DNA of 49,841 bases from Kofleriaceae bacterium (GTDB taxonomy: Bacteria > Myxococcota_A > Polyangia > Haliangiales > Haliangiaceae), in the NCBI GenBank assembly GCA_025357755.1, contig JANXOP010000082.1, forward strand, positions 1-49,841. The letters are read 5' to 3'. Made by a program: the position numbers and the translations under genes. A model generated the notes under the pieces. It did no database searches, was not told where the DNA came from, and was given only the letters and a program-made list of their open reading frames with translations. This document shows, in pieces, positions 12,549 through 21,542 of the stretch (positions are counted from its first letter, which is position 1; each line of letters starts with the position of its first letter).

Positions 12549-14162
12549 GTGCGCACACCGATCCTCACCGTCCTCGTCGGGCTCTGGCTCGTGGGCACCG
12601 CCTCGGCGCAAGCGCCGAACACGGCGCGTTCGTTTCGCGAGGGTGCGAATCACCACCTCGGTGATGATGCATTCATCGCGGAGCTCGGTCGTCCACCGAC
12701 TGATGGCGAGGAGAAGCTGCGCATTCGTACGCACTTCCTCGCGGTCGAGGCATTGCTCGGATCGCGGCCCGCGACCCGGCCGGAGCTCGCGGAGAATCGC
12801 GCGAAGCTGCTCGCTCACTTCGCCGACTACATCGCGAAGGGCACGACACCGAAGAACGCCCACCTGCCCTGGCGCACGCCGGTGTTCATCGATGACGAAG
12901 GCACGATCTGCGCGGTCGGCTACCTGATCGAGCAGAGCGCCGGTCGTCCCGTCGCCGAGAAGATCGCTCGCGGTCATCGCTACGCATATCTCGAGGAGAT
13001 CGTCGAGGCGATGCCCGAGGTGAAGCAATGGGTCGCGCAATCGGGGTTCACGCTCGAGGAGCTCGCCTCGATCCAGCCGGGCTACGAAGGTCCCGATATC
13101 GCGCACGAGACCGGGTGGACGCTCGCGAAGGTTCCCGACGGTGCCTATGCCAACGATCACGTCACCGGCACGATCCGTCATCACCACATGCAAGGCCTGT
13201 GGTCCGTCACCGCGGGAGATCGCGTCGTCGGTAGCGGCACGTTCGTGAACGGCAAGGCCATGTGGCACAGCCTCTACGCGGATGGCAAGCCGATGGCCGA
13301 GGGTCACTATCGTGGCGATCAGCCGAGCGGAACGTGGAAGTTCTTTCATCCGAGCGGACAGCTCGCCGCCGAAGGCACGCTCTCGCACGGCAGTCGCGAC
13401 GGGCGCTGGACGTTCTTCTACGACAACGCGAAGCGGACCGAGCTCGCGGTCGGACACTTCGATCACGGTTGGACGCTCGGCACGTGGAAGCACTTCGATG
13501 CCGAGGGCAAGCTCCTCGCCGTATCGACCGCGACCTCGGCGGACGGACGCTTCCTACTCGACGTGGTGCCGGGTCGCGATGGCGTCGGCCATCAGATCGA
13601 TCAGCAGGGCAACACCGGCGATCACCATCGCCTCGACATGATGACCATGGGCACCGAGCGCCTCTTCGTGCAGGAAGGTGTCGATGCGATCTACGATCAG
13701 CGTGGCAACGAGCTCGTGCGCGAGGGCGAGACCTGGAGCTCGCGCGACTGCAGCTGGACGAGCGAGCGCAGGCGATTCGCACAGCGCGGCGAGCTCGCCG
13801 CGCTGCACACGCTGATGATGGACGACCGCTTCGCGGAGCATGTCCGCTGCGCGGGAGCGCCGAGTGAGCTCTCGGTCGAACGCGGCAAGACGATCGAGAC
13901 CATGCTCGCATCGGCGCGGGCCGTGCGCGCGCAGACCCCGGACTTCATGCGCGCGGTCGCCCTCGGCGAAGCAACGGTCGCCGACGCCGAGGGTCCAAGC
14001 GAGGGTGACAACGTGCTAGGTAGCCGGAATGTCGAGGATCTTGCCAAAGTGCTCGCCTCTAGCATGACCTGGTACATCGAGTGGCCTCACATCGATGGGA
14101 GGTTCGTGGCGGTGTTCGCGACGCTCGCCGGGGTAAGCCCGCTGAACATGATAAGTCCATGA
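12549..14162 (+). CDS. Secreted protein with N-terminal conserved domain and MORN/YwqK-type repeats
   Basis: 537 aa from GTG 12549, with a signal peptide ending at GTASA. Residues about 30-185 form a domain with LPWRTPVFIDDEGTICAVGY and KIARGHRYAYLEEI, which I recall from secreted proteins of Bacteroidetes and myxobacteria without a named function. Residues about 235-330 are MORN_2/YwqK-antitoxin-type repeats (MAEGHYRGDQPSGTWKFF, AAEGTLSHGSRDGRWTFFY, and a third copy ending GTWKHFDAEGK). YwqK-like repeats are common in secreted proteins and do not by themselves mean an antitoxin. The remaining 200 residues contain no recognised domain. It is monocistronic. The 90 nt after it are AT-rich and hold the putative promoter of the next operon. 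Confidence 0.8.
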   Translation: MRTPILTVLVGLWLVGTASAQAPNTARSFREGANHHLGDDAFIAELGRPPTDGEEKLRIRTHFLAVEALLGSRPATRPELAENRAKLLAHFADYIAKGTTPKNAHLPWRTPVFIDDEGTICAVGYLIEQSAGRPVAEKIARGHRYAYLEEIVEAMPEVKQWVAQSGFTLEELASIQPGYEGPDIAHETGWTLAKVPDGAYANDHVTGTIRHHHMQGLWSVTAGDRVVGSGTFVNGKAMWHSLYADGKPMAEGHYRGDQPSGTWKFFHPSGQLAAEGTLSHGSRDGRWTFFYDNAKRTELAVGHFDHGWTLGTWKHFDAEGKLLAVSTATSADGRFLLDVVPGRDGVGHQIDQQGNTGDHHRLDMMTMGTERLFVQEGVDAIYDQRGNELVREGETWSSRDCSWTSERRRFAQRGELAALHTLMMDDRFAEHVRCAGAPSELSVERGKTIETMLASARAVRAQTPDFMRAVALGEATVADAEGPSEGDNVLGSRNVEDLAKVLASSMTWYIEWPHIDGRFVAVFATLAGVSPLNMISP

Positions 14163-14175
14163 GATGTGACTGAAA

Positions 14176-14194
14176 TTGCCAACCGAGGTGGCAA
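14176..14194. promoter_or_regulatory. Inverted repeat upstream of the glycoconjugate operon
   Basis: TTGCCA (14176-14181), a 7-nt spacer, then TGGCAA (14189-14194) form a perfect 6-bp inverted repeat. It sits immediately upstream of the putative -35 box in the AT-rich patch between the repeat-protein gene and the SGNH hydrolase gene. It lacks the T-run expected of a terminator, so an operator is at least as likely. Confidence 0.4.
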
Positions 14195-14195
14195 A

Positions 14196-14224
14196 GTGAC
14201 ACCTTAATAAAAACCAAAGATAAG
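14196..14224 (+). promoter_or_regulatory. Putative sigma-70-type promoter for the 14254-20864 operon
   Basis: GTGACA (14196-14201) is followed after exactly 17 nt by GATAAG (14219-14224), inside a markedly AT-rich stretch (TTAATAAAAACC) that stands out from the GC-rich window. A start near 14231 would leave a leader of roughly 20 nt containing GGGG before GTG 14254. It was matched by eye to the -35/-10 pattern. Myxobacterial promoters vary, so confidence is moderate. Confidence 0.4.
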
Positions 14225-14253
14225 AACTGTGAAGAAGCGGGGACAACAGACCC

Positions 14254-14844
14254 GTGGAACCGCAGCCCCGACGGTCGAATGTTTACGGAGTGATCGCGTG
14301 CCAGGGTGACTCGCTCACCTACGGTTCGCGCGATCCGGACGGCATGAGCTACCCGCTGTATCTCGGCCGGATCCTGTCGCAGAAGCACAGCCAGACCTGG
14401 GTGACGACCAACTTCGGCGTCCCCGGCGAGTGCTGGTCTGATCTGTGGCGCCGCAACTATCACGAGTTGCTCTCGGTGCCGGAGGCCGGCGAGGTGTGCT
14501 TGTGGATGGGCACGAACGACGCGTGGAAGGACCGCTCGTTCGAGCAGAGCTCGATCGCTTGCGAGGCGGTGCTCGACCAGTGTCGCGCGCTCGGCCGGTT
14601 CGTATATCTCGCGACGCTACCGGGCAAGCGTGGGTTCGGAGCGCCGCGCGAGCCTTGGACGATGAATGACGGCATCGCGAAGCTCAACGACCTGTATCGC
14701 AAGATCGCGGAGCGACGGAAGCTCGCGATCGTCGATCTCGAGGAGCTGCCCGTCGAGCACTTCTGCGACGGCATCCACCTCACGCAAGCGGGTAACAAGT
14801 GGGTGGCCGAGAAGTTCGCAGCGGCGATCGAGGCCCGGCGATGA
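14254..14844 (+). CDS. SGNH/GDSL-family hydrolase
   Basis: 196 aa from GTG 14254. The four SGNH blocks are visible: CQGDSLTYGS with the nucleophile Ser20, GVPGE (block II Gly), WMGTNDAW (block III Asn) and CDGIHLTQAG (block V Asp-x-x-His). This fold covers esterases, lipases, acyltransferases acting in reverse, and sugar deacetylases or deacylases. No signal peptide is seen, so a cytoplasmic role is likely. It is the first gene of a five-gene operon. Its stop overlaps the next start (ATGA), so it is probably made together with an amino-sugar epimerase. Removing or adding an acyl or acetyl group on the glycoconjugate is therefore a reasonable guess. Confidence 0.88.
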   Translation: MEPQPRRSNVYGVIACQGDSLTYGSRDPDGMSYPLYLGRILSQKHSQTWVTTNFGVPGECWSDLWRRNYHELLSVPEAGEVCLWMGTNDAWKDRSFEQSSIACEAVLDQCRALGRFVYLATLPGKRGFGAPREPWTMNDGIAKLNDLYRKIAERRKLAIVDLEELPVEHFCDGIHLTQAGNKWVAEKFAAAIEARR

Positions 14845-15908
14845 TCGCGTGCGTCGTCGGAACACGGCCCGAGGTCGTGAAGATGGCGCCGATCATCGCA
14901 GCTCTGCGCCGGCGCAACCTTCCACACTGCGTGATCGCGACCGGCCAGCACCACGACTGGTCGATGATGGGGAGCTTCCTCACTGGCTTCGGGATCACGG
15001 TCGATCACCAGCTCGTCCTCACCGACCGCAGCCTGCTCGGCAGCTTCGTCGAGATCACGGCAGGACTCGGCGCCTTGTTCGCCGCCGAGCCACCGAAGCT
15101 CGTGCTCGCCGTCGGTGACACCACGACCGTCGTCGCCGCGGCGTTTGCCGCGCGCAAGACCGGGAGTGCGTTCGGTCATGTCGAGGCCGGCCTGCGCGCG
15201 TTCTCGCGCGAGCTCCCCGAGGAGGAGCATCGGATCTGCGCCGATGCGCTCGCGGATCTCCTGTTCGCACCGACCAGCTTCGCCGTCGCGAACCTCACCC
15301 GCGAGCATGTCAACGGTCGGGTGATCCTGACCGGTAACACGGTCCTCGATGCACTGCGCGAACACCGCCCTGCGGTCGCGACCGAGCGCCACGGCGTGCT
15401 GGTCACGATCCATCGCCAGGAGACCGTCGACGATCCGCAAGCGCTCGCGAGCGTGATCGCGCAGATCGATCGGCTCGGACGCGATCACGACGTGGTGTGG
15501 CCACTCCACCTGCGCACGCGCGCGAAGGCGCAAGAAGCACAGCTGACCCTACCGAGGCACGCGACGATCACCGAGCCCCTCGGCCACGTCGAGTTCCTCG
15601 CACGACTCGCGAATGCACGGCTGGTCGTCACCGATTCTGGCGGGGTTCAAGAAGAGGCAGCGATCCTCGGGACGCCGTGCGTGACGGTGCGTGCCCATAC
15701 CGAGCGCGTCGAGACCCTCGAGGCCGGGGTCGGGCTGCTCGCCCTGCCCGGTGAGATCTACGAGGTCGCCAGCCGGATCTTTGCCGATTGGGCAGCGTTC
15801 GCGCGCCCGTTGCCGGAGCTCTACGGGGATGGCCGCGCTGGCGAGAAGATCGCGCATGCCTGCGACGAATGGTTGAGCCGCTCCATCCTGCGCGAACTGG
15901 TGGCCTGA
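14841..15908 (+). CDS. wecB: Non-hydrolysing UDP-N-acetylglucosamine 2-epimerase
   Basis: 355 aa from ATG 14841, which overlaps the preceding stop by ATGA. The family interconverts UDP-GlcNAc and UDP-ManNAc, the entry to ManNAc-containing polysaccharides and glycolipids. Signature segments are in place: VVGTRPEVVKMAPI at the N-terminus, AVGDTTT, GHVEAGLRAF, LPEEEHR (catalytic acid region), VTIHRQETV (usually HRREN) and VTDSGGVQEEA. The length fits the family. No ManNAc dehydrogenase (WecC) gene lies in the window, so the product may be used as ManNAc itself or completed elsewhere. The symbol refers to the family and the in vivo role is inferred. Confidence 0.92.
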   Translation: MIACVVGTRPEVVKMAPIIAALRRRNLPHCVIATGQHHDWSMMGSFLTGFGITVDHQLVLTDRSLLGSFVEITAGLGALFAAEPPKLVLAVGDTTTVVAAAFAARKTGSAFGHVEAGLRAFSRELPEEEHRICADALADLLFAPTSFAVANLTREHVNGRVILTGNTVLDALREHRPAVATERHGVLVTIHRQETVDDPQALASVIAQIDRLGRDHDVVWPLHLRTRAKAQEAQLTLPRHATITEPLGHVEFLARLANARLVVTDSGGVQEEAAILGTPCVTVRAHTERVETLEAGVGLLALPGEIYEVASRIFADWAAFARPLPELYGDGRAGEKIAHACDEWLSRSILRELVA

Positions 15909-17045
15909 GTGCGGATCGGTATGGTCGTGCCGTACGACCTCTCCGAGGAGGGCGGGGTCAAGAAGCACGCGATGCAGCTCGCGGCGACGCTGCGCTCGCT
16001 CGGCGACGAGGTCGACGTGATCGGTCCGAGCCGGCGTTCGGTGGGGCTCGAGCACGTGTTCACGTTCGGCGGCGTCGTCAACGTGCCGAGCAATGGCTCG
16101 GCGAATCACATCGGCCTGTTCTCGCGCCCGGATCGCGTGCGAGCGTTCGTGCGCGAGCGAGCGTATGACGTGCTCCACGTTCACGAGCCACTCGTGCCGG
16201 CGTTGCCGTACTACGCGATCTGGAGCGCGGGCGAGGCCGCGCGCATCGCGACCTTTCACGCCTACACCGAACATCAGAGTGCCTTCGGCCACGCCGTGCG
16301 GGTCGGGACCTCGGCGATCGCGCTCGGCATGTTCGATCGTGGCATCGCCGTGTCGCCGGCGGCGGCTCAGCTCGCCCGCACGACGTTCTCGCGGCCGCTC
16401 GCGATCATTCCGAATGGCATCGACCTCGGCAACTACCACCCGACACCCGCGCGCGACGTGCCCGGAGGTCCGGTGCGCTTGCTGTTCGTCGGTCACTGGC
16501 GCGATCCACGAAAGGGGCTCCCACACCTGCTCGATGCGTGCGCCGCGTTGTCGCGACCGTGGTCCCTCGATGTCGTTGGCGATGGTGGGGCGGTAGCCAA
16601 ACGCGAGCATCCGAACATTCGCTATCACGGCGCGATCGGCTCGGAGGCGCGGCTGCGCGAGTTGTACGCCGGATGCGACGTGTTCGTCGCGCCCTCGACC
16701 GGCATGGAGTCCTTCGGCATCGTGCTCCTCGAGGCGATGGCTGCTGGCCGCGCGATCGTGTGCTCCGACATCGAGGGCTATCGCGCGGTCTGCGGCACCG
16801 CCGCGGTGCTCGTCCCGCCGGGTGACAGCGGCGCCCTCGCGCGGGCGATCGAGGTGCTCACCGCGACCCCGGGAGCCCGCACGCAGCTCGTCGCCGCCGG
16901 CCGTGCGCGGGTCCAACAGTTCGATTGGGCCACGTTGGTCGGGGATGTTCGCGCCGAGTATCTCGCGGCGATCGCCGCGCGTCACGGCGAGGTTGCATCG
17001 CGCAAGCACGTCAGCCAGCGAACGAGGTCGAGACATACGCGATGA
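15909..17045 (+). CDS. GT4-family glycosyltransferase, PimA-like
   Basis: 378 aa from GTG 15909, which abuts the epimerase stop with no gap. The N-terminal Rossmann domain has IGMVVPYDLSEEGGVKKHA and DVLHVHEPLVPALPYYA, very close to the actinobacterial phosphatidylinositol mannosyltransferase PimA pattern. The C-terminal donor domain has IIPNGIDLGNYHP, LLFVGHWRDPRKG and the acidic FVAPSTGMESFGIVLLEA motif typical of retaining GT4 enzymes. PimA-like enzymes put a mannose or other sugar from a nucleotide donor onto a membrane lipid at the cytoplasmic face. The acceptor here is unknown. The stop overlaps the exporter start (ATGA), a strong sign that glycosylation and export belong together. Confidence 0.92.
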   Translation: MRIGMVVPYDLSEEGGVKKHAMQLAATLRSLGDEVDVIGPSRRSVGLEHVFTFGGVVNVPSNGSANHIGLFSRPDRVRAFVRERAYDVLHVHEPLVPALPYYAIWSAGEAARIATFHAYTEHQSAFGHAVRVGTSAIALGMFDRGIAVSPAAAQLARTTFSRPLAIIPNGIDLGNYHPTPARDVPGGPVRLLFVGHWRDPRKGLPHLLDACAALSRPWSLDVVGDGGAVAKREHPNIRYHGAIGSEARLRELYAGCDVFVAPSTGMESFGIVLLEAMAAGRAIVCSDIEGYRAVCGTAAVLVPPGDSGALARAIEVLTATPGARTQLVAAGRARVQQFDWATLVGDVRAEYLAAIAARHGEVASRKHVSQRTRSRHTR

Positions 17046-19441
17046 TCTGGTTGGTGCGGCTCGCGGTGCGACGCGCGCGCTGGGTGATCGCGATCGGCTT
17101 CGCGATCGTGTGTGTGAGTGGAGTCCTGGCATCGCGCCTTTCGCTGCAGACCGATCTCGCCGAGCTACTTCCCGCACGGGCGCCGAGCGTGATCGCGCTG
17201 CGTGCGCTCGCGAAGCGAGTCGGAGGCACCGGCAACGTCGCGATCGCGATCGAGTCGATCGATGGTCGACCGCAGGCCTTGCGGGCGTACGTACCAGAGC
17301 TCGCGACCGCGCTCCGCGCGAAGCTCGGAACGCGCTTGTTATCGCTGCGCTACCGCCGCACCGAGATCGAGCAGTACTACCGACGCTTCGCGGCGTACTA
17401 CGTCGCGTTCGCGGATCTCGAGCGCTGGACCGAGCGCACCGAGCATGCAGTCGGGATCCGCGAGAATCCGCTCTACTTCGACCTCGACGACCATGACGAC
17501 GTCGCGGAGCTCGCCGACGAGCTGCGCGCCTCGCGGACCCGACTCGAGCCGAGCAATGCCGCCGATCCGGACTCCGGCTTGTTCATGACCGAACACGGTG
17601 CGCTCGCGGTGATCTTCGTTCGGCCCGCGGCCGACAGCCTCGATCTCGGAGCCTCCGAGGGGCTGTTGCACGAGATCGAGGGCATCGTCGCGGCCACTCA
17701 TCCGGAGCGCGCGGGCGCGCGGATCGCAGGCTACACCGGCTCGATCCCGAGCGCGCTCTCGGAGGTCGAAGCGGTACGTCACGACATCGCGAGCACCTCG
17801 ATCCTCGTGCTCGTGTGCGTGGGTGGCGTCGTGATCTGGTACTTCCGCGGTGTCCGCGAGCTGTTCCTACTCGGCGCACCCCTCGTCGTCGGGATCGCCG
17901 TCGCGCTCGGGTTCGCGGAGCTCGCGATCGGCCACCTCAACGCGCAGACCGCGTTTCTCGGCTCGGTGATCGTGGGCACCGGGATCAACTACGGAGTGAT
18001 CCTGCTCGATCGGTTTCGACAACATCGCTGGCAAGGCGATCGCACCGAGGTCGCGATCGTCGCCGCATGTGCGGGCACGCTGCAAGCGACCTCGGTGGCA
18101 GCGGCGGCGACCGCGATCGCGTTCGGGACGCTCGCCGCCGGTGAGGTCGAGAGCTTTCGCCAGTTCGGCTGGATCGGCGGGCTCGGGATCCTCGCGTGCT
18201 GGCTCGCGACGTTCACGATCGTGCCCGCATGCCTCGTGCTCCTCGACCATCGTCCGCAACCACCGCGCAGGACACGCCCGCTCGAGACGATGTGTCGCGC
18301 GATCGGCGAGCTCGCGACGCGGGCACCGCGCACGGTGATCGCGGCCGTCACCGCGCTCGCCCTCACCGGGGCGGCGCTCGCGATCCACGCGCGCGATCAC
18401 GCGGTCGAGACCGACATGCACGCGCTCGCGACGCGCTCCTCGAGCATCGATGGGATCGAGCGGCTCGATAACCGGCTGCGCGCGATGGACGACCGGTCCT
18501 CGACACCGGCGGTGATCGCGACCGAGCAACGAAGCGATGCGCGGCCGGTGTGCGCCGAGCTCAATCGCCGAGCCAAGACCGACCTCGCCGGGGTCGTCGT
18601 GCGTTGCTACACGGTCGATGATCTGTTCCCCGAGGACCTCGAGCGGCGAGCGCCGCTCCTCGCGCGCCTGCGGACATCGGTGGCCAAGATCGAGCTCGAC
18701 GAGATCGCCCCCGCCGATCGCGCGGAGCTCGCCGAGTTGACCCGCGCCCTCGCCGAGCACCCGCCGGGTGACAGCGATCTGCCCCCCGAGCTGTCGGAGT
18801 ATTTTCTCGAGCGCGATGGCTCGCTGGGCAAGCTCGCGTATGTCGATCCCGTCGACGAGCACCTCGAGCCGAACCTGTATCGCCTGACCGATGCGATCCG
18901 CGAGATCCACCTGCCCTCGGGCAAGGTCGTCTCTTCGAGCGGCGAGCTGGTCGTGTTCGCCGATGTCCTGCGCGCGGTGCGTCGTGATAGCCGCACGCTC
19001 ACGGCCGCGGCAGCCGGACTCGTGCTGCTCGTGCTCGTCGTCATCACACGGCGGGGCGCCACGATCGCGCGCGTCGGCTTCGCGCTCGCGGCCGGCGTGG
19101 CGGTCATGCTCGGCATCGCGGTGGTGACCGGGCAGAAGCTGAACTTCTTCAACTTCGTCGCCCTGCCGACGACGTTCGGGGTCGGCATCGACTACGCGAT
19201 CAACATCGAGGAGCGGATCCGCCAGCGCGGTGGCCGCGCGATCGCGCAGGCCATCGCCGAAGCCGGGCCGGCGGTCGTGCTCGCCTCGCTGACCTCGATC
19301 CTCGGATACGCCTCGCTGTTGATCGCGGATAGCCGCGCCCTCGCGTCGTTCGGTGCGCTCGCCATGCTGGGCGAGCTCGCGTGCATCGTCCTCGCGATCA
19401 CGCTGATCCCCGCGTTGTGGGCCGTGCGTCGTGACGGCTAG
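17042..19441 (+). CDS. MMPL/RND-family lipid exporter (HpnN-like)
   Basis: 799 aa from ATG 17042 (longer frames run into the glycosyltransferase gene). Two homologous halves each contain one N-terminal helix (RRARWVIAIGFAIVCVSGVL; APRTVIAAVTALALTGAALA), a large periplasmic loop, then five helices, twelve in all. The loops and helix spacing resemble HpnN, the hopanoid exporter, and mycobacterial MmpL. The second half has the family motif GVGIDYAINIEERI with Asp717-Tyr718. The matching place in the first half reads GTGINYGVILLDRF, with Asn316 in place of the usual Asp. In MmpL3 both Asp-Tyr pairs serve proton relay, so the exporter may be asymmetric. The cargo is probably the glycolipid made by the flanking enzymes. 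Confidence 0.88.
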   Translation: MIWLVRLAVRRARWVIAIGFAIVCVSGVLASRLSLQTDLAELLPARAPSVIALRALAKRVGGTGNVAIAIESIDGRPQALRAYVPELATALRAKLGTRLLSLRYRRTEIEQYYRRFAAYYVAFADLERWTERTEHAVGIRENPLYFDLDDHDDVAELADELRASRTRLEPSNAADPDSGLFMTEHGALAVIFVRPAADSLDLGASEGLLHEIEGIVAATHPERAGARIAGYTGSIPSALSEVEAVRHDIASTSILVLVCVGGVVIWYFRGVRELFLLGAPLVVGIAVALGFAELAIGHLNAQTAFLGSVIVGTGINYGVILLDRFRQHRWQGDRTEVAIVAACAGTLQATSVAAAATAIAFGTLAAGEVESFRQFGWIGGLGILACWLATFTIVPACLVLLDHRPQPPRRTRPLETMCRAIGELATRAPRTVIAAVTALALTGAALAIHARDHAVETDMHALATRSSSIDGIERLDNRLRAMDDRSSTPAVIATEQRSDARPVCAELNRRAKTDLAGVVVRCYTVDDLFPEDLERRAPLLARLRTSVAKIELDEIAPADRAELAELTRALAEHPPGDSDLPPELSEYFLERDGSLGKLAYVDPVDEHLEPNLYRLTDAIREIHLPSGKVVSSSGELVVFADVLRAVRRDSRTLTAAAAGLVLLVLVVITRRGATIARVGFALAAGVAVMLGIAVVTGQKLNFFNFVALPTTFGVGIDYAINIEERIRQRGGRAIAQAIAEAGPAVVLASLTSILGYASLLIADSRALASFGALAMLGELACIVLAITLIPALWAVRRDG

Positions 19442-20864
19442 ACGGGCCGCGGCGCTGTTGATCGCGTGCACCGTACTGCGCGTGGTCTCGCTGTATCGGC
19501 CGTGCTTGTCGGATGACGAGGCGATCTACGCGGTGACCGGGCGCGAGATGCTGACCCACCACGCCCTGTATCGCGACATCGTCGATCACAAGCCACCCGC
19601 GATCTACGTGCTCGACGCGCTCGCGCAGGCGCTGGGTGGCATGGTGGTGCTTCACGTGCTGTTGATCCTCGCCGTGTGGGCGACCGGCCTCTTGCTCGCG
19701 CGGATCGTGCGAGGCGATGCCGGCTGGATCGCGGCCCTGCTGTGGTGTGTCTTCACGACGACGCTGATCGATGTCGATGCACTCGCCGCGAACTGCGAGC
19801 TGTGGATGATGTTGCCGCTGGTCGGCGCGGTCGCGGCGTTTCTCGAGGAGCGGCTCGTGCTCGCCGGGGCGCTCGTCGGGATCGCGATGCTGTTCAAGTA
19901 CCAGGCAGGGATCCAGCTCCCGCTGTTCGCGGTGACCTGGCTCGCGCATCACCGGTGGCGCGCGCTCCCGGGGCTCGCTCGCCTCGCGCTGGGCACGGCC
20001 CTCCCGCTCGCGGCCACGGTGCTCGCGTTCGCGGCCACCGGAACGCTCGCGTCCGCGCGCTTCTGGTTCTTGTTCAACTTCTCGTACATCGACGCCGGGC
20101 CCCCGCTCGCCGAGCGTCTCGTTCGCTTGGTCGTGCGCGGCGGGCTCGTTGCAGGTTCGGCGGCGCTGCTCTACGGCTGCGCGATCGCGGGCATGCGCGA
20201 GGCGTGGATGACCGCGCGAGGCAGGTTCGTCCTCGGCTGGCTGGTCGTCAGCGCGCTGTGTGTCGGTCTCGGTGGCCGGTTCTTCGGTCACTACTTCCAT
20301 CAGTTGACCGCGCCGTTGTGCGTGCTCGCCGCTCCGGTCGCGGTCCGCGTGGCGAGCCGGCGGTGGTTCACCGCCGCGCTCGTGTTGCCTGCGGCGATCT
20401 ATCTCGTCCTCGGCGTCCTCCACACGCGCGTGATGGTGTGGGCCGGCGAGCCCGATCCGGACTACCGCGGAGTGATCGCGCGCCTCGATGCGCTCGCACC
20501 GCGCACGGCGACGATCTGCATCTGGGGGAATTCGCCGGTCCTGTACTTCGAAGCCGAACGACCACTCGGGTGCAGGTTCACGTTCGCGAACTACCTGACC
20601 GGCTTGGTGGCGGGCGAGCCGCGCAAGGATGCGGCGTCGCACGTGGTGCCCGAGGCGTGGACGATGTTCGAAGCCGACCTCGTCGAACGGCGGCCCGACT
20701 TCATCCTCGACGCGTCGCCGGGTGACGTCGCGTTCTACGGCGCGTTTCCACCGGACCACTTTGCGATCCTGGCGCGGGCGCTGCGCTGTGGCTATCGGGA
20801 TGTCGCGACGGTCGACGGCATCCGGATCTTCGAGCGTCTCGCGACTCGCTCGTGTCAGTACTGA
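19431..20864 (+). CDS. ArnT/PMT-like membrane glycosyltransferase (GT39/GT83 type)
   Basis: 477 aa from GTG 19431, overlapping the exporter gene by 11 bp. It is a polytopic protein whose first periplasmic loop has LSDDEAIYAVTGREML and DHKPPAIYVLDAL. This is the acidic-residue and HKPP pattern of undecaprenyl/dolichyl-phosphate-sugar transferases such as ArnT and protein O-mannosyltransferases. About ten hydrophobic segments follow, with a soluble C-terminal tail (from about residue 340) containing RTATICIWGNSPVLYFEAER. Enzymes of this type move a sugar from a polyprenyl-phosphate carrier onto lipid A, protein or glycan in the periplasm. As last gene of the operon it could modify the exported product. 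Donor and acceptor are unknown. Confidence 0.87.
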   Translation: MTARRAAALLIACTVLRVVSLYRPCLSDDEAIYAVTGREMLTHHALYRDIVDHKPPAIYVLDALAQALGGMVVLHVLLILAVWATGLLLARIVRGDAGWIAALLWCVFTTTLIDVDALAANCELWMMLPLVGAVAAFLEERLVLAGALVGIAMLFKYQAGIQLPLFAVTWLAHHRWRALPGLARLALGTALPLAATVLAFAATGTLASARFWFLFNFSYIDAGPPLAERLVRLVVRGGLVAGSAALLYGCAIAGMREAWMTARGRFVLGWLVVSALCVGLGGRFFGHYFHQLTAPLCVLAAPVAVRVASRRWFTAALVLPAAIYLVLGVLHTRVMVWAGEPDPDYRGVIARLDALAPRTATICIWGNSPVLYFEAERPLGCRFTFANYLTGLVAGEPRKDAASHVVPEAWTMFEADLVERRPDFILDASPGDVAFYGAFPPDHFAILARALRCGYRDVATVDGIRIFERLATRSCQY

Positions 20865-20912: not shown

Positions 20913-21542
20913 TCAGATGCCGCTGAACGTCGTGACCTCGCTGTCGTCTTGATCGTCAGCGGCACCGAGAAGCTCTTCGACCGTCGACGGAGGCTCGTAG
21001 GGTGGATACGCGAGACCGAGGTCGAGCATAGTCGCCTCGTAGTCGTGCGTGACGACCCCCGAAGTCACCATCGTCACCTCTGCATAGAAGATCATGATCG
21101 TGTAGTTCGCGGTCTCGAGGCCCAGGATCTCGTAGTTTCCGTGCTCGTCGGTGATCGCCGTCTGATCCCCGTTTGCGCCTCGTGCGATCACCGTACAGCC
21201 CACCAACGACGTGCCATCGCGCGAGTTCGTCACGTGGCCACGGATCGCGTGGCGCTCGTGAACTTGCTGATTGGCCAGCATCTGGGCCTTCGCGAGCGCG
21301 GCGCCGACGTCCTGTCCGTCATCTTCGATCGCCTCGTGGTCAGCGGCCACGGCGACGTCGAGCGTCGGCGTCGGCGTCGGCGTCGGCGTCGACGCTCGTG
21401 GCCGGAGTGCCGCGCGAGTCACCGGCGGTGGAGGCGCGGCCTCCGCGATCGCCGCGATCTCCGACGACGGTCGCGTCGCGCGGCCAGCGACGAGGCCCAC
21501 GATGCCGCACACGCCTGCAAAGACGAGGGATCCTAGCTGCAT
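20913..21542 (-). CDS. Membrane-anchored protein with carboxypeptidase-regulatory-like domain
   Basis: 209 aa. A hydrophobic N-terminus (LVFAGVCGIVGLVAG) serves as signal anchor. A Pro/Thr linker (PTPTPTPT, encoded by a GGCGTC-type tandem repeat at about 21364-21392) leads to an acidic helix and then to residues about 98-150, a CarboxypepD_reg-like beta-sandwich: IRGHVTNSRDGTSLVGCTV, DEHGNYEILGLETANYTI. These domains occur in many secreted myxobacterial proteins and in TonB-dependent receptors as structural modules. The acidic C-terminus (GAADDQDDSEV) has no known motif. The start is uncertain because GGAGG lies directly against the ATG, too close to serve it well. It is divergent from the lipoprotein gene at 21661 and convergent with the operon ending at 20864. 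Confidence 0.75.
   Translation of the reverse strand: MQLGSLVFAGVCGIVGLVAGRATRPSSEIAAIAEAAPPPPVTRAALRPRASTPTPTPTPTLDVAVAADHEAIEDDGQDVGAALAKAQMLANQQVHERHAIRGHVTNSRDGTSLVGCTVIARGANGDQTAITDEHGNYEILGLETANYTIMIFYAEVTMVTSGVVTHDYEATMLDLGLAYPPYEPPSTVEELLGAADDQDDSEVTTFSGI

Follow-up and report, generated by a model that had tools for sequence, protein, structure and literature searches.

A PimA-like glycosyltransferase paired with an MMPL transporter in Myxococcota, and an operon that may make and export an inositol glycolipid

Introduction

Mannosylated inositol phospholipids are known from actinobacteria and from eukaryotes. What, then, is the gene for a PimA-like enzyme doing beside a transporter gene in a member of the Myxococcota? 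The question is raised by an operon in a contig from a Kofleriaceae bacterium (JANXOP010000082.1, assembly GCA_025357755.1), the whole 49,841 nucleotides of which are called the window here. Its five genes encode an SGNH hydrolase, a WecB-type UDP-GlcNAc 2-epimerase, a PimA-like enzyme of glycosyltransferase family 4 (GT4), an MMPL-family transporter and a putative membrane glycosyltransferase of the GT-C class. The answer favoured here, to which we give a probability of roughly 0.4, is that the operon makes and exports an inositol glycolipid resembling the phosphatidylinositol mannosides (PIMs), with the sugar probably changed. This five-gene set is narrow in distribution; of greater interest is that a PimA-like GT4 recurs beside an MMPL transporter, often in the company of a flippase-like gene.

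An earlier note on this DNA, written from the letters of the window alone, had proposed that the five genes together make and export a glycolipid. That proposal gains from the likeness of the GT4 to PimA, from the GT4-MMPL pairing and from a GT4/GT-C fusion in a related genome. The five-gene set itself fares less well, and N-acetylmannosamine (ManNAc) as part of the cargo would follow from the epimerase alone. The inositol-lipid context and the flippase-like gene of the sister loci lay beyond the reach of a note based on the window. No description of such a gene set was found among the titles and opening lines of abstracts that were searched. The window is contig C121 of assembly G000 (8.6 Mb in 450 contigs, completeness 89.9%, contamination 5.7%); other genomes, contigs, loci and families are likewise given by our labels (G, C, L and f).

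A PimA-like enzyme repeatedly found beside an MMPL transporter

In a search of the Protein Data Bank (PDB), the only strong relatives of the window GT4 are entries for mycobacterial PimA (E = 3.5e-46), the next family following at 1.5e-12. The description of this enzyme as PimA-like is therefore well founded. Six residues of PimA have been assigned to the donor phosphates, mannose, ribose and catalysis, namely Gly16, Arg196, Lys202, Glu274, Glu282 and His118 (excerpts of PMC9883506 and PMC4506291). When the PimA numbering is transferred by hand onto the alignment, the window GT4 retains five of them (Gly16, His118, Lys202, Glu274 and Glu282) and has His at the position of Arg196. Among 11 members of the subfamily this His is confined to the window and to G012, a sister species in the same genus; the other nine have Arg. 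Perhaps the His reflects a change of donor that is tied to the epimerase. By analogy with PimA itself, the GT4 might use GDP-mannose and phosphatidylinositol.

The subfamily, taken at E ≤ 1e-40, comprises 11 genes in six of 56 genomes, the window genome included. A profile search of 377 genomes of the phylum, with five candidates scored per genome, added one further close member in another family (G368). An MMPL gene adjoins the GT4 gene or lies one gene off in seven of these 12 close members (the window, G012, G010:C139, G006:C140, G015:C414, G000:C285 and G368), so that the linked pair noticed in the window is indeed a recurrent one. The 8.6-Mb window genome has four MMPL matches, and at such a density chance adjacency would, by our own estimate, be well under 1% per GT4. 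A PF03706-type, flippase-like gene is found within three genes of the GT4 in six of the 12 (G000:C285, G006:C140, G010:C139, G015:C414, G000:C391 and G035, the GT4 of which carries an internal stop). This gene was recognized by Pfam in L023, L154 and L156, and by 42-63% identity to the L023 protein in L079, L060 and L129. G012 has a PF03706 gene about 7.5 kb upstream of its operon.

Four loci from the same genus (L023, L079, L154 and L060) have a GT4 of the same subfamily, 46-50% identical to that of the window, together with an MMPL partner. Unlike the window, they carry PF03706-type and PALP genes and, in two of the four, an AUR1-like PAP2_3 gene, which in L060 has an internal stop; the stretches examined show no SGNH, epimerase or GT-C match.

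Is there one MMPL lineage dedicated to this GT4? This was rejected. The MMPL partners fall into four parts of the tree: window with G012; L060, L079 and L154 with two MMPLs that lack such a GT4; L023; and L175. Forcing the seven partners into a single clade gives p = 2.5e-27 in the approximately unbiased test on a 56-row tree, for a group that was defined by gene adjacency and a constraint that was tested after the first tree was known. An earlier 59-row tree contained L134, L137, L138 and L085, which are long branches or far outgroups; for the 56-row tree L175 came in and these four were left out. It is thus likely that the pairing was assembled several times, from four MMPL lineages, and this argues for function. 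A PimA-like enzyme that stands repeatedly beside an MMPL transporter, and often beside a flippase-like protein, offers a testable candidate in Myxococcota for moving such lipids, and the recurrence of the core pair in related genomes is a hint that bacteria other than actinobacteria may have inositol glycolipids. An excerpt of PMC12041525 calls the flippase that moves PIMs in mycobacteria unknown.

Is the acceptor an inositol lipid?

Inositol-1-phosphate synthase (INO1, PF01658) is encoded in 49 of the 56 genomes, including those of the window and G012. Four genomes of the genus (G002, G003, G004 and G007) bring INO1 together in one short stretch with genes for an MMPL protein and a CDP-alcohol phosphatidyltransferase; in G002, G004 and G007 the contig ends within INO1. 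These loci are possibly operons for the synthesis and export of an inositol lipid. In the 59-row tree their MMPLs share a well-supported group with three GT4-linked MMPLs. Of the same stretches (L130, L131, L135 and L136), the first two also encode a class-V aminotransferase, and L130 has a gene for an FGGY sugar kinase besides.

The second line of evidence comes from AUR1. An intact AUR1-like PAP2_3 gene adjoins the GT4 gene in L154 and lies three genes away from it in L129; the copy in L060, with its internal stop, is the third. The only PDB matches of the L154 protein up to E = 1 are to AUR1, inositol phosphorylceramide synthase (about 6e-4). Inositol lipids are relatively rare in bacteria according to an excerpt of PMC9246714, which also cites a report of ceramide phosphoinositol in Myxococcus xanthus. 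An inositol lipid is, in our view, the likeliest acceptor of the GT4, on the strength of inositol context found elsewhere and not of any fact tied to the window operon itself.

Several observations weigh against the inositol-glycolipid reading and are best set out together. The window operon contains no inositol gene, and INO1 of the window genome lies on a separate 3.4-kb contig, while INO1 of G012 is on a 13-kb contig that has no MMPL gene. The INO1-linked MMPLs are outside the branch of the window MMPL in the 59-row tree. The residues that we take to form the acceptor side of PimA are only partly kept in the window GT4: the NGS motif is present, the Tyr preceding it and Lys123 are not. Five of the 12 close members have no MMPL neighbour (G010:C260; G006:C166, which is the fusion discussed below; G006:C95, on a contig of only 8.5 kb; G000:C391; and G035), and the 13-20 kb retrieved around six more distant GT4 relatives (family f30, 33-36% identity) gave no match to an MMPL. 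A PALP gene occurs within about 10 kb in five loci, so these loci are not fully independent of one another. Finally, neither the cargo of the MMPL transporter nor the direction of transport is readable from its sequence, and both are inferred. As an aside on family f30, the genes downstream of the GT4 in L176, L179 and L180 agree in length (541, about 390, about 253, 371, 304 and 249 amino acids), which suggests another conserved cluster.

What if the lipid carries no inositol? The operon would still make and export a glycolipid, with diacylglycerol, phosphatidylglycerol or ceramide, for example, as the acceptor, and the likeness to PimA would reflect fold and lipid binding. The partly kept acceptor side fits this idea, as do weak NCBIfam matches of the GT4 to N-acetylglucosaminyl-phosphatidylglycerol synthase (57.5 bits, cut-off 480) and, also weakly, to other lipid-acting GT4s. 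However, no solved structure other than PimA is a strong relative of this enzyme, INO1 is present in the genome and two sister loci have an intact AUR1-like gene. A non-inositol acceptor is therefore a serious alternative, though on the unlikely side.

Four genes as a unit and an optional fifth

The features of the locus are collected in Table 1. All five open reading frames are on the plus strand at the positions given in the earlier note, as confirmed by the open reading frame list and a sequence check, and the gene order and the joints (ATGA, abutting stop and start, ATGA, 11-bp overlap) are as it had read them. Genes 1 to 4 match the Pfam or NCBIfam families Lipase_GDSL_2, Epimerase_2/wecB, GT4 and MMPL. 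Our own gene finder gives overlaps of -4 in eight of 25 same-strand neighbour pairs in the window, those of the operon included, so that such joints amount to ordinary operon packing.

Table 1. Coordinates of the operon genes and of the upstream stretch in the window.
Feature	Position	Strand	Remarks
AT-rich intergenic stretch, possible control region	14163..14253		upstream of operon; GC 0.45
SGNH/GDSL hydrolase	14254..14844	+	196 amino acids, GTG start; PF13472, 1.1e-20
Non-hydrolysing UDP-GlcNAc 2-epimerase, WecB type	14841..15908	+	355 amino acids; ATGA overlap with SGNH gene; TIGR00236
PimA-like GT4 glycosyltransferase	15909..17045	+	378 amino acids; TGA of epimerase gene abuts GTG start
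MMPL-family RND transporter	17042..19441	+	799 amino acids; ATGA overlap with GT4 gene; PF03176
GT-C (PMT_2/ArnT-type) membrane glycosyltransferase	19431..20864	+	477 amino acids; 11-bp overlap with MMPL gene; optional member

How widely is this gene set conserved? The earlier note had suggested looking for the same five genes in order in other myxobacteria. The full set was observed only in the window genome, and the first four genes recur in order in a single sister species, G012. Identities between the two copies are 86% for the SGNH hydrolase, 68% for the epimerase, 59% for the GT4 and 58% for the MMPL protein. The tight joints are kept only in part (+1, +15 and -4 bp in G012), the gene after the MMPL gene is on the opposite strand there, and a search of the G012 genome (93% complete) for the fifth gene gave no relative. 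Operon-type SGNH hydrolases occur in two of 16 genomes of the genus, the window genome included. An SGNH match at E ≤ 0.001 occurs in 22 of 282 genomes of the phylum, and outside the window genome the best of these has 30% identity and E = 9e-7; G012 is not among these matches and was presumably not sampled. A scan of one genome per species in 84,980 species returned the G012 contig as the sole relative, with two short peptides as the query, so that divergent copies may escape and the records of the window genome were possibly left out. JAFAOG010000034.1, the nearest carrier with a name, goes under the label Deltaproteobacteria and is ranked by NCBI under Myxococcota, Myxococcia. At all three levels, genus, phylum and species-wide scan, the idea of a widely conserved myxobacterial operon, or of five genes as a conserved set, was thus rejected.

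The high identity of the SGNH hydrolase raised the possibility that this gene alone had been transferred recently. This was rejected, because four-fold sites have decayed equally in all four genes (49/87, 83/155, 75/129 and 174/304 sites identical, in gene order), although such sites are near saturation and make a weak clock. The SGNH hydrolase is simply under stronger constraint than its neighbours. Retention of the order of the first four genes in the sister species, with equal four-fold decay, points to more than chance and is consistent with joint descent of the four. With the four-gene copy in G012 and the five-gene set seen in the window genome alone, the four genes make up the unit and the fifth is an optional addition.

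The SGNH hydrolase has the motifs GDSL (as GDSLT), GTND and DGIH, which are kept in the G012 copy and which we take to correspond to the GDSL serine, block III (GxND) and block V (DxxH) of the family. A simple scan found no hydrophobic segment, and on this basis the enzyme is probably cytosolic. The epimerase scores 263 bits against TIGR00236 (wecB), above the curated equivalog cut-off of 210.15, and its best PDB match is 4neq (1.1e-53).

The epimerase brings in a different explanation, in which it supplies UDP-ManNAc for the repeat unit of a polyprenyl-linked surface polysaccharide, the GT4 extends the chain, the GT-C enzyme decorates it and the MMPL transporter is a passenger. WecB-type epimerases do serve polysaccharides as a rule. 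The GT-C enzymes PimE, ALG6 and ArnT take lipid-linked donors, according to the excerpt of PMC12041525. However, the five operon genes and the five neighbours scanned with Pfam include no initiating transferase, Wzx, polymerase or ligase, and the GT4-MMPL pairing recurs without the epimerase. In addition, a second epimerase gene (41% identical) is present elsewhere in the window genome, on contig C26, with GT4 matches nearby. A polysaccharide operon is accordingly a poor bet.

The fifth protein was called ArnT/PMT-like in the earlier note, a label that holds through its relatives and not through the protein itself. It has no Pfam match up to E = 1, PMT_2 (PF13231) included, and a PDB search with the protein and with its 12-row alignment returned nothing up to the same limit. 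Relatives at 55-57% identity do match PMT_2 (29.7 bits for the L015 fusion and 28.4 for L016, cut-off 26.1), so that the GT-C assignment is supported through relatives only. The protein has DE and HKPP motifs, with D29 and E30, an acidic motif in the first loop, invariant across the 12 aligned rows, and seven hydrophobic segments in a simple scan. A single-sequence AlphaFold model is too poor for use (mean predicted local distance difference test score 41). Matches to the gene occur in seven of the 56 genomes, the window genome included, which also has a second copy (56% identical). G006 offers a natural fusion of the two enzymes, in which a single open reading frame of 960 amino acids (L015:11909-14791) joins a PimA-like GT4 to a GT-C (PMT_2) domain. 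A different arrangement is seen at L018:2653-9518, where an MMPL gene is flanked by two GT-C-like genes and followed by a gene for a GT87 enzyme, which we take to be the family of PimE.

The transporter and its cargo

The MMPL protein matches PF03176 over two stretches (131 bits, gathering cut-off 20.5; 6.2e-38). Could it be a hopanoid transporter of the HpnN type, with the sugar genes unrelated? The best NCBIfam model is TIGR03480 (HpnN), and the best PDB matches are the RND transporter 5khn, which we take to be HpnN, and 6wu0, which is named so. However, the HpnN score of 206 bits is far under the cut-off of 751.85, and no squalene-hopene cyclase (PF13243) was matched in G000 or G012, at an assembly completeness of about 90% and 93%. 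Such a match, at E ≤ 0.001, did turn up in 13 of 29 genomes searched. Hopanoid cargo was therefore rejected and retains only the slightest probability. A clustering of the exporter with hopanoid transporters was named in the earlier note as a finding that would count against its proposal; by model score and cyclase search, no link to hopanoids was seen. In both MMPL trees the window protein stands with its G012 counterpart as a pair set apart from the rest. At the first relay site, in transmembrane segment 4 (TM4), 57 of 59 MMPLs have Asn, that of the window included, and all 59 have Asp or Glu at the second. The roles of these sites are assumed from work on MmpL3 and HpnN, both of which presumably have Asp at the first site.

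A further possibility is that the operon glycosylates a specialised metabolite and that the MMPL transporter exports it. The narrow and patchy distribution of the operon would suit such a role, and MMPLs can export siderophores; the PDB matches of the window protein include entries named siderophore exporter MmpL4. However, the nearest solved relatives of the GT4 act on a lipid, and no polyketide, peptide-synthetase or terpene gene was found among the five window neighbours scanned with Pfam. This explanation is improbable, slightly more so than a polysaccharide operon.

A possible mechanism and its relation to known systems

If the operon does make a PIM-like inositol glycolipid, the steps could be as follows. 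The WecB-type epimerase would supply UDP-ManNAc, to the GT4 or to a later step. The PimA-like GT4 would glycosylate a lipid of the membrane on its cytoplasmic face, an inositol phospholipid being the likeliest acceptor, and the SGNH hydrolase, probably in the cytosol, might trim or proofread an acetyl or acyl substituent. Export from the inner membrane would then fall to the MMPL transporter. On the periplasmic face, the GT-C enzyme of this strain could extend the glycolipid by one more sugar, taken from a polyprenyl-phosphate donor. What is inferred here is the identity of the acceptor and of both sugars, the direction in which the transporter works and the step assigned to the SGNH hydrolase.

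A broader and rather unlikely idea is that Myxococcota have a PIM-like system of their own, with an inositol lipid (phosphoglycero- or sphingolipid), a PimA-like GT4, flipping across the membrane by a PF03706 flippase-like protein and export by an MMPL transporter. The window operon would be a derived form with a ManNAc donor and a periplasmic GT-C step. If so, it would give a previously undescribed inositol glycolipid.

How does this compare with known systems? The operon resembles the PIM pathway of actinobacteria in having a PimA-like GT4 for a cytosolic first step and a GT-C enzyme available for periplasmic extension (there PimE, at a later step), with inositol-phosphate synthase in the genome. 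It differs in its host, which is not an actinobacterium, in the MMPL exporter that accompanies the GT4, in the His that replaces Arg196 of PimA in operons of this type, and in the addition of an epimerase and an SGNH hydrolase. With the HpnN/HAE3-type transporters the window protein shares the MMPL superfamily and its best model scores, whereas it falls below curated cut-offs, has Asn at the TM4 relay site and comes from a genome in which no hopanoid cyclase was found. The mycobacterial glycolipid loci with an MmpL exporter (lipooligosaccharides and MmpL12, in an excerpt of PMC12507525) likewise link glycolipid genes to an MMPL gene. In contrast to those loci, the five window genes include no polyketide synthase or acyltransferase. 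The window also has a PimA-like GT4 in place of what we assume to be dedicated lipooligosaccharide glycosyltransferases.

Upstream region and neighbouring genes

The earlier note had described an AT-rich, promoter-like patch ahead of the operon. The AT-richness stands, with only 69 of 49,751 90-mers in the window as low as or below the patch in GC content. No promoter was recognized: between 13900 and 21100 no sigma-70-like site was found, where 0.5 were expected, and a consensus promoter was accordingly rejected. DNA similarity with G012 starts only at 14266, and the patch is not alignable. Across it, 91 bp from the operon, lies a same-strand upstream gene with a match to a MORN-repeat variant (12549-14162). 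Beyond the operon, a run of GTCGGC repeats (21364-21391) falls within a minus-strand gene (20913-21542) that encodes a carboxypeptidase-regulatory-like domain.

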